Shown one piece after another: positions 10,969 through 34,248 of a stretch of DNA of 45,173 nt (position 1 is the first letter of the stretch; every line of letters starts with the position of its first letter). The position numbers and the translations under genes are program-made. Below the pieces are notes generated by a model, which worked only from the letters and a program-made list of their open reading frames with translations, was not told the DNA's origin and did no database searches. Origin of the DNA: an uncultured Rhodospirillales bacterium (GTDB taxonomy: Bacteria > Pseudomonadota > Alphaproteobacteria > Rhodospirillales > Defluviicoccaceae); assembly GCA_937127205.1 (NCBI GenBank), contig CAKZLS010000092.1, positions 1 to 45,173 of the forward strand, given 5' to 3'.

Positions 10969-11400
10969 ATGGCATCACCATCGCGCATCGAGCAATTGTG
11001 CATGGAGAGGGGCATGAAGATGACCGGTCAACGGCGCATCATTGCCCGCGTTCTATCCGAGGCCACGGATCACCCGGATGTTGAGCAAGTTTACCATCGC
11101 GCCGTTCGATTGGACCCCAGGATCAGTATTGCGACCGTCTACCGGACGGTCCGCCTGTTCGAAGAAGCCAGCATTCTTGAGCGCCATGATTTCGGCGACG
11201 GCCGCTCCCGTTACGAGGAGGTGACGGATGAGCACCACGATCATTTGATCGATATCCAGACCGGCCAAGTAACAGAATTTCGCAATCCGGAGATCGAGGC
11301 TCTGCAGCGAAAAATCGCCGAACAGCACGGGTTCAGACTTGTCGGGCACCGTTTGGAACTTTTCGGCGTGCCATTGGAGGGTGCCAAGGACACAGAGTGA
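10969..11400 (+). CDS. Fur family transcriptional regulator (Fur/Mur-like)
   Basis: 143 aa; MTGQRRIIARVLSEATDHPDVEQVYHRA, ATVYRTVRLFEEASILERHDFGDGRSRYE, DEHHDHLID. Confidence 0.93.
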   Translation: MASPSRIEQLCMERGMKMTGQRRIIARVLSEATDHPDVEQVYHRAVRLDPRISIATVYRTVRLFEEASILERHDFGDGRSRYEEVTDEHHDHLIDIQTGQVTEFRNPEIEALQRKIAEQHGFRLVGHRLELFGVPLEGAKDTE

Positions 11401-31181: not shown

Positions 31182-31604
31182 ATGGAAACTTCGCGTCCAT
31201 TTGCCCGCGTTCTTGAACAGTTGCGAAAAGCGGATTTGCGTCCCACTCGGCAGCGGTTGGCGCTCGCCAAGCTGTTGTTCGAGAACGGCTACCGACACAT
31301 TACCGCCGAGGCGTTACATGAAGAGGCGGCCGCTGCCGATGTTCGCGTATCGTTAGCCACCGTATACAACACGCTCCACCAATTTACGGAGGCGGGTTTG
31401 CTTCGCGAAATTGTCGTGGACGGAACCCGTTCGTACTTCGACACGAACACATCGGACCATCATCACTTCTTCCATGAAGTGTCGGGCCGCCTCGAGGATA
31501 TTGCAGCCGAGCAAATTGTCGTTTCTGAGCTGCCTCCGGCCCCCAGCGGTACCACGGTCGCTCGCGTCGACGTTATCATACGTGTGACAGAAGACACTCA
31601 ATAA
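31182..31604 (+). CDS. irr: Iron response regulator Irr (Fur family)
   Basis: 140 aa; LRPTRQRLALAKLLFENGYRHITAEALHEEAA, SLATVYNTLHQFTEAGLLREIVVDGTRSYFDTNTSDHHHFFHE. Confidence 0.9.
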   Translation: METSRPFARVLEQLRKADLRPTRQRLALAKLLFENGYRHITAEALHEEAAAADVRVSLATVYNTLHQFTEAGLLREIVVDGTRSYFDTNTSDHHHFFHEVSGRLEDIAAEQIVVSELPPAPSGTTVARVDVIIRVTEDTQ

Positions 31605-31632
31605 TTGCATTTTTAACGGGGGCGATGGGAAG

Positions 31633-31649
31633 TTTAGAATCATTATAAA
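31633..31649. promoter_or_regulatory. ICE/Irr-box-like imperfect palindrome TTTAGAATCATTATAAA
   Basis: Matches the Irr box as I recall it (TTTAGAA-N3-TTCTAAA) at 13 of 14 fixed positions; followed by TTGACT (31654-31659). Confidence 0.6.
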
Positions 31650-31756
31650 CTTCTTGACTCCATTGCTTGTCGTCATCACATTGGTGATGAAATGAGTGGG
31701 TGTTTGCTAAAATGCCCGCGCAAACCGATTAATATTGTTTACGAGGGAGAACGGAC

Positions 31757-32176
31757 ATGGCTGCATTGCAGGGCTCGAAAACCGAAGACAATCTGAAGGC
31801 TGCATTCGCCGGGGAATCCCAGGCAAACCGCCGCTATCTGTATTTTGCGCAAAAGGCGGACGTCGAGGGTTACAACGACGTCGCATCGGTTTTCCGGTCC
31901 ACCGCCGAGGGCGAGACTGGCCACGCCCATGGTCATCTGGAGTTCCTAGAGAAGGTCGGCGATCCGGCCACCGGTTTGCCCATCGGTCCCACCGGCCAGA
32001 ACCTCTCGGCGGCGATCGCCGGCGAAACTCACGAATACACCGACATGTATCCCGGTATGGCGAAAACCGCTCGAGAAGAGGGCTTTGACGAAATCGCCGA
32101 TTGGTTCGAGACACTGGCAAAGGCCGAGAAATCCCACGCGGGCCGCTTCCAAAAGGCCCTGGATGGCATGGACTGA
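31757..32176 (+). CDS. Rubrerythrin-family diiron protein lacking a rubredoxin domain
   Basis: 139 aa; [51 protein letters not shown]; no cysteine in the ORF. Confidence 0.93.
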
Positions 32177-32298: not shown

Positions 32299-33636
32299 AT
32301 GCGGGAAGGAAGCCTGGAGGCACCTATTCGTCACCCTATTGCGTGGCGAGACGAGGATTTTTACGATCTCGACAAGCTGGATGAGGAACTGCGGCGAGTC
32401 TTTGACATCTGTCACGGTTGCCGCCGATGTTTCAATCTCTGCGATAGTTTTCCGCGTCTGTTCGACATTGTGGATGAGTCCGAAACAGGCGAGGTGGATT
32501 CGGTCGCCAGCGGCGATTTCAAACCCGTAGTGGATGCCTGTACGCTCTGCGACATGTGCTTTCTCACCAAATGTCCATATGTGCCACCCCACGAATTCAA
32601 TCTCGATTTTCCTCATTTGATGCTGCGCTACCGCGCGATGGAGCACAAGCAGGGCAAGGTGCCGTTCGGCGCCCGCCAACTCACCGAGACCGATCGCAAC
32701 GGGAAGGCCGCGTCTCGCATGTCCTCAATCGCCAATTGGGCCGGCAAATGCGGAAACACCGTCACCCGGCCCCTCATGGAGACGTTCGCCGGTGTCCACC
32801 GCGACGCCCACTTGCCCAAGTACCATGGCAAGACGCTAACCGCGCGCGCTGGTGACGAGACGCCAGAGCTCAATGGCGACGCGCCGGCCTTCGGCCGCAA
32901 AGCGGTCATCTACGCCACGTGTTTCTGCAATTACAACAATCCGGATATCGGAACGGCCACCCGCGCCGTCTTGGCGCGAAACGGCGTGGAGACGGAAGTG
33001 GTGTATCCATCGTGCTGTGGTATGCCGCAACTGGAGCATGGCGATGTCGAACGGGTTGCCGAGCAGGCGCGAAAGATCGCGGGCGAGCTCCGGCCGTGGG
33101 TGGACAAAGGCTACGATGTGGTGTCCCTAGTGCCATCCTGTACCTTGATGCTCAAATTCGAATGGCCGCTGATCGAGCCGGATAACGACGATATCAAAGC
33201 CCTCAGCCAGTCGACGTTCGATGCGTCGGAATATGTCGTCGACATTGCACGGAAGGAGGGCTTGGCCGATGGCTTGACACCTCTGAACGGCGGCATTTCC
33301 GTTCATATCGCATGTCACGCGCGGGCCCAGAACATGGGCCAAAAGGCGGCGGATATGCTGCGGCTGCTGCCGGACACCGACATTGAGGTCATCGAGCGGT
33401 GTTCCGGGCACGGTGGTTCGTGGGGTGTGATGAAGGAAAATTTCGAGGTGGCGCTCAAGGTCGGCAAGCCGGTCGCCCGATCCGCCAAGGAGAAGGGAGC
33501 TGCCTATGTGCTTTCGGAATGTCCGCTGGCCCGTGACCACATCATCCAGGGAATGGAGCGCTTGGACGATGATCCGGTGACGGTAGAGGACGTCGCGCAT
33601 CCCATCCAGTTGATCGCGCGTGCGTATCAACTGTGA
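32299..33636 (+). CDS. GlpC/HdrD-like Fe-S oxidoreductase (two 4Fe-4S motifs plus CCG domains)
   Basis: [11 protein letters not shown] and [22 protein letters not shown]...[26 protein letters not shown]...[14 protein letters not shown] 32299. Confidence 0.88.
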
Positions 33637-33660
33637 ACCGTGTTTGAAGGAGCGCTCCCC

Positions 33661-34248
33661 ATGAGCCGTCGAGAGATCACCAGGGCCGACCTGCTGCCCA
33701 TGGACGAGTACGAAAAGGTGCGCGACCAGCGCCGCAGCACCATAACGGCAATGAAGCGCAATCGGCGGATATCGGTCGGACCGGACGTTACCTTCTACTT
33801 TGAGAACTACGACACCATGCTGCATCAGATCCATGAAATGTTGCGGATCGAGAAAGGCGGCGATGCGCAGATCGAAGACGAGCTTGCGGCTTACAACCCC
33901 CTGATTCCCGATGGCGGCAACCTCGTGGCCACGATGATGATCGAAATCGACGATCCGCGCCGGCGGGAGCGCGTGTTGAACGAGCTCGGCGGAATAGAAG
34001 AGTCGATTTTCCTCGACATCGGTGGCGAGAAGGTCCGTGCGGTGGCGGAAGCGGATGTTGAGCGAACCACCGAGACCGGTAAGACGTCATCCATCCACTT
34101 TCTCAAGTTCCCGTTTCCCGAGGCGCTGATCGGCGCGTTCGCGCAACCGGGGACACGCGTGGTCCTGGGCATCGACCATCCCAAATATGATCACATGGCG
34201 GCGTTGCCGGAAGCGGTCCGCGCCGCGCTCGCGGACGATCTTCGGTAG
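33661..34248 (+). CDS. DUF3501 family protein
   Basis: 195 aa from ATG 33661; ITRADLLPMDEYEKVRDQRR, FYFENYDTMLHQIHEMLRIE, EAYNPLIPDG-like block; located directly after the GlpC-like gene. Confidence 0.85.
   Translation: MSRREITRADLLPMDEYEKVRDQRRSTITAMKRNRRISVGPDVTFYFENYDTMLHQIHEMLRIEKGGDAQIEDELAAYNPLIPDGGNLVATMMIEIDDPRRRERVLNELGGIEESIFLDIGGEKVRAVAEADVERTTETGKTSSIHFLKFPFPEALIGAFAQPGTRVVLGIDHPKYDHMAALPEAVRAALADDLR

Follow-up and report, generated by a model that had tools for sequence, protein, structure and literature searches.

Organization of the irr-rbr region

The locus lies in a window of 45,173 nucleotides, by which the whole stretch of DNA analysed is meant. The first gene, irr (31182-31604, + strand), encodes a Fur-family haem-responsive iron regulator of 140 aa, which was identified as Irr with the NCBIfam models NF045678 (IrrA; 218.6 bits, cut-off 150) and NF045677 (Irr; 195.4 bits, cut-off 170). 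Its sequence includes a DHHHF stretch containing the HxH haem-binding motif. There is no cysteine among the 140 residues and the N-terminal GCPW-type haem regulatory motif, as in Bradyrhizobium-type degradation, is therefore absent; this motif is not universal among Irr proteins (PMC7762939). A second Fur-family gene, of the Fur/Mur type, is located at 10987-11400, 20 kb from the site described below. Two Irr paralogues were found in each of the Methylocystaceae genomes G080, G083 and G084 (loci L154/L178, L156/L177 and L152/L176, respectively).

Downstream on the same strand follow three genes. The first, rbr (31757-32176, +), encodes an aerobic-type rubrerythrin of 139 aa without a rubredoxin domain (Pfam PF02915, 108.8 bits), which was 86-93% identical to its counterparts in relatives when aligned. 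The second (32299-33636, +) encodes RFO, a CCG-domain Fe-S oxidoreductase assigned by PF02754 and by its match in gene context to PMC5114695, and the third (33640-34248, +) a DUF3501 protein (PF12007, 225.7 bits). Judged from domains and gene order, rbr-RFO-DUF3501 is the known aerobic-type rubrerythrin module, in which the identical three genes were described as one presumed operon (Cardenas et al. 2016, PMC5114695). A search of that study gave no mention of Irr or of the regulation of the module, and the link to Irr is an addition of the present analysis. The module has also been found in some mitochondria (PMC7050145).

The predicted rbr promoter consists of a -35 element TTGACT (31654-31659, +), which shares the TTGAC geometry conserved in relatives, and a -10 element CACATT (31677-31682, +), separated by a 17-bp spacer; the latter was recognized in aligned promoters, in which the family consensus is CATATT. 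Transcription would start at about 31689, and a ribosome-binding site, GAGGGAG, can be read at 31743-31749 (+). The TTGACT/CACATT pair was missed by a sigma-70 pattern scan with default rules because the -10 element is weak.

The palindrome and its core

Between irr and the -35 element, positions 31632-31650 carry the 19-mer GTTTAGAATCATTATAAAC, which the original prediction had described as an imperfect palindrome with a core one position off the alphaproteobacterial Irr box. Both statements and the placement between irr and TTGACT agree with the sequence, although the palindrome is in fact longer: it extends over 25 bp as GAAGTTTAGAATCATTATAAACTTC (31629-31653, centre C31641), is imperfect and has 11 of its 12 positions paired. 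The core, TTTAGAATCATTATAAA (31633-31649, a 17-mer given without strand), begins 28 bp past the irr stop codon and 21 nt before the start of the -35 element, is conserved in orthologous promoters and matches 13 of the 14 defined positions, with a single mismatch, of TTTAGAA-N3-TTCTAAA, which we take to be the alphaproteobacterial Irr box (here also ICE). The outer GAAG/CTTC arms were not conserved in relatives, which indicates that the ICE core alone matters.

A match of this quality is rarely produced by chance. When the 152 bp between irr and rbr were shuffled 20,000 times with dinucleotides preserved, 13/14 was reached only once (P = 5e-5), and the whole genome (3.8 Mb, 88% complete) contains just two ICEs with at most one mismatch, where about 0.08 would be expected at the base composition of the window. 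When the shuffle test was applied to single relatives, P<0.05 was obtained individually in just 12 of 24, since the proximal half-site is degenerate in them, and the combined P was 2e-16. A weight matrix was trained on the best consensus matches in orthologous promoters outside the host's order; the site scored 28.7 bits, inside the training range of 10.8-33.0, and the next best 17-mer in the window 5.4 bits, scores that are partly circular because the best matches to the consensus were used for training. Independent support for the motif comes from the consensus-free alignments and the mbfA promoters presented below. As for autoregulation of irr, the best match before this gene in the window reaches 9/14 and is not convincing as an ICE, and in relatives no more than scattered matches were seen.

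Conservation of the site upstream of rbr

Among 30 irr loci from the host's order, the window counted, rbr adjoins irr in 25. Alignment of the region from irr to the rbr ribosome-binding site, made without reference to any motif, showed conservation mainly in two blocks, TTTAGAA..TT..AA and, 3-6 bp further on, TTGAC. Likewise, when sequences were aligned on TTGAC alone and the motif was ignored, T-rich and A-rich half-site columns appeared at -24 to -5, together with the -10 consensus CATATT 23-28 nt past the TTGAC start. The comparison was then based on 78 distinct irr-adjacent rbr loci, drawn from the host-order loci, 80 named loci, SAR11 loci and other families of the order. In 68 of them (about 87%) an ICE that reaches 10/14 or more begins 19-24 nt before TTGAC, with a chance expectation of about 0.02 per site and a TTGAC density of 0.004 per base in the irr-rbr regions, and the same arrangement occurred in 4 of the 43 loci that lack irr immediately before rbr. 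In 63 sites the offset from ICE to TTGAC was 20 nt (n=26), 21 nt (n=23), 22 nt (n=10), 23 nt (n=3) or 24 nt (n=1), so that 20-22 nt, which includes the 21 nt of the window, covers 59 of the 63. Across many families, the distance between ICE and promoter thus varies by no more than 2-3 bp. Additional or tandem TAGAA half-sites close to the ICE were noticed upstream of rbr at L043 and L021 and hint at further contacts of Irr.

Occurrence of the site and of Irr

At 41 loci where adjacency of irr and rbr was absent, distant or unclear, whole genomes were searched for Irr. Of the 25 genomes with Irr, 22 had an ICE of at least 11/14 before rbr, vs 0 of 16 without Irr (Fisher P 9.4e-9 over the 41 loci, a statistic that ignores kinship and leaves out four loci found later). 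The Irr-free set is taxonomically mixed, including Caulobacterales, Acetobacteraceae, a Beijerinckiaceae, Chromatiales and a betaproteobacterium, and several lineages are therefore involved. The Irr-bearing exceptions were L100, which lacks an ICE, and L074 and L094, which reach 10/14 only. The four loci found later (L221, L222, L224 and L225) belong to the host's order; Irr is encoded in these genomes, rbr lies away from irr and no ICE was found.

Comparison with known Irr targets

The consensus was tested on promoters of mbfA, an experimentally established Irr target that is repressed (PMC3413700, PMC7762939). In the Hyphomicrobiales, the order of a Methylocapsa genome, 15 of 30 mbfA promoters contained a box of at least 12/14, nine of them with 14/14, and mbfA thus shares the TTTAGAA-N3-TTCTAAA core with the site in the window. 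The position is different, however. Where TTGAC was clearly recognizable in an mbfA promoter, the box begins 26-31 nt past the first base of the -35 element and lies on the -10/+1 region, and in Rhodobacter sphaeroides transcription of mbfA starts inside the Irr box (PMC3413700). The rbr box, by contrast, borders the -35 element on its upstream side at a fixed 20-22 nt. A distance from box to start similar to that at the rbr of the window is found in ccpA of R. sphaeroides, where the Irr box precedes the start by about 40 nt (PMC3413700). Haem-receptor promoters, which were tried as a control set for activation, yielded three weak sites only (11/14). Rodionov et al. (2006, PLoS Comput Biol 2:e163) reportedly predicted the Irr regulon by comparative genomics, which is the same type of prediction as that of the present rbr site, and rbr sites of some Rhodospirillales may already be included there.

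The site in the window thus combines a match to the consensus, Irr in the genome, a position in the predicted promoter region, conservation in orthologous promoters, and loss together with Irr. The palindrome is very probably an operator for the Irr encoded just upstream, and the earlier proposal that Irr regulates the rbr operon is supported by the identity of Irr, by the conservation of the ICE before the -35 element and by a presence that tracks Irr. Judged from sequence comparison, it appears to be a well-supported Irr operator, ordinary in kind and unusually rigid in geometry. The identity of Irr, the site, its fixed geometry and its co-occurrence with Irr are directly established, and binding, a ligand response and a sign of regulation are inferred. 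The operator would control the sigma-70 promoter TTGACT-N17-CACATT, which would serve the rbr-RFO-DUF3501 operon for peroxide defence; haem-free Irr would bind at low haem or iron and be released as haem rises, by analogy with characterised Irr proteins, and the bound dimer would be placed immediately before the -35 element, with its centre about 48 bp ahead of the predicted start. A widespread, hitherto unassigned peroxide-defence module would in this way be linked to the haem-sensing regulator Irr.

Variants in SAR11 and Gammaproteobacteria

Other placements of the box exist upstream of rbr. In SAR11, the sole box lies over the spacer and the -10 element at L121, L180 and L182, and only an upstream box is present at L183 and L186. 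In MED-G09 and some SAR11 rbr promoters (L057, L083, L184 and L185) there are two ICEs, one on either side of the -35 element. In gammaproteobacterial rbr promoters the box, which is usually TTTAGAnTnAGTCTAAA, mostly starts 39-41 nt past the first base of the -35 element, near +1. The SAR11 sites on the spacer and -10 element and the gammaproteobacterial sites near +1 fit repression. The three natural geometries (upstream, downstream and on both sides of the -35 element) allow a direct test of the choice between activation and repression by Irr.

The box-bearing gammaproteobacterial genomes encode a second Fur-family protein that is 35-44% identical to Irr and has an HxH stretch. These proteins form one clade (100/100), which groups with Irr against Fur (99/99). 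For the four proteins tested the top models were those of Irr, at 111-136 bits, and because these scores are under the cut-offs the proteins are called Irr-like here, not Irr. The variant box TTTAGAnTnAGTCTAAA was seen upstream of rbr at L102, L115, L118, L120, L124 and L082 (Gammaproteobacteria and AG-390), where an Irr-like protein of this clade is encoded as well, and in the Ctena symbionts L097 and L105 the irr-like gene is divergent from rbr with the box in between.

Activation or repression

According to a review, the location of the ICE decides whether Irr acts as activator or repressor (PMC7762939). The original prediction left both signs possible, and this caution was right since the evidence on the sign is split. 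The ICE abuts the -35 element without covering it and its distance is fixed, which suggests contact with RNA polymerase; moreover, the rubrerythrin mRNA of Pelagibacter ubique rose 1.57-fold (P 0.025) under iron limitation (PMC2864753). Based on this position and this response, we lean slightly towards activation of the rbr operon by Irr under shortage of haem or iron, a reading that may or may not prove correct. The haem-free peroxidase system would then be turned on when haem or iron is scarce.

On the other hand, it is nearly as likely that the same operator serves repression, in which a dimer bound beside the -35 element would hinder RNA polymerase at low iron or haem, and the iron-rich Rbr-RFO module would be produced only when iron is plentiful. 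The characterised Irr targets bfr and mbfA are repressed (PMC3413700, PMC7762939), and R. sphaeroides ccpA, with its similar distance from box to start, is up 1.8-fold in an irr mutant under low iron, which means mild repression (PMC3413700). The sites over the core promoter in Gammaproteobacteria and some SAR11 point in the same direction, upstream and downstream sites seem to be interchangeable within SAR11, and the -35 element of the window is strong and near consensus, so that an activator may be unneeded. Nevertheless, repression does not readily agree with the single spacing upstream of the -35 element in the 68 of 78 loci, as opposed to the boxes of mbfA on the core promoter, nor with the Pelagibacter rbr, which rises and does not fall under iron limitation.

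Other readings of the palindrome

Binding of the box by a different member of the Fur family, such as the Fur/Mur homologue at about 10987-11400 of the same window or a PerR, is very unlikely. Boxes of the Fur family are alike and a Fur homologue is present in the window, but 15 of the 16 Irr-free genomes keep a homologue of Fur level and none of the 16 has an ICE before rbr. Furthermore, the motif matches the boxes of known Irr targets, and Fur and Irr fall into separate clades (99/99) in the tree. That the palindrome matches the Irr box by chance or serves to terminate irr transcription is scarcely credible: the position shortly after the irr stop codon and an RNA hairpin of -13.1 kcal/mol (z -2.3), better than most shuffles, would fit, but conservation extends to the ICE core and to its spacing from TTGAC, not to the outer arms, and the core is present also at loci without irr upstream, e.g., in Methylocystaceae. 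A terminator of irr was rejected, as no terminator-like site was found, the stem is AU-rich and there is no T-run.

The katG site and a possible haem switch

Only one further near-perfect ICE exists in the genome (13/14; G000:C151:1857-1873, i.e., L002:1501-1517); it precedes katG, which encodes a catalase-peroxidase that apparently carries a signal peptide. The idea that katG is generally a target of Irr was rejected, since at least 11/14 was reached in only 4 of about 19 relatives besides the genome of the window.

A speculative and rather improbable extension is that Irr switches peroxide defence from haem-dependent to haem-free enzymes and back. When haem is scarce, Irr would shut off katG, which encodes a haem enzyme and whose ICE is probably near the -10/+1 region, and would turn on the non-haem Rbr-RFO-DUF3501 system, whose ICE is fixed upstream of the -35 element. 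For the gammaproteobacterial proteins, a sister clade to Irr whose variant box is TTTAGACTnAGTCTAAA, the site would have moved onto the transcription start and the sign would have changed. Before katG, 14/14 sites are present in two relatives; that of L197, which is one of the two, overlaps a likely -10 element, and in L195 an 11/14 site adjoins such an element.
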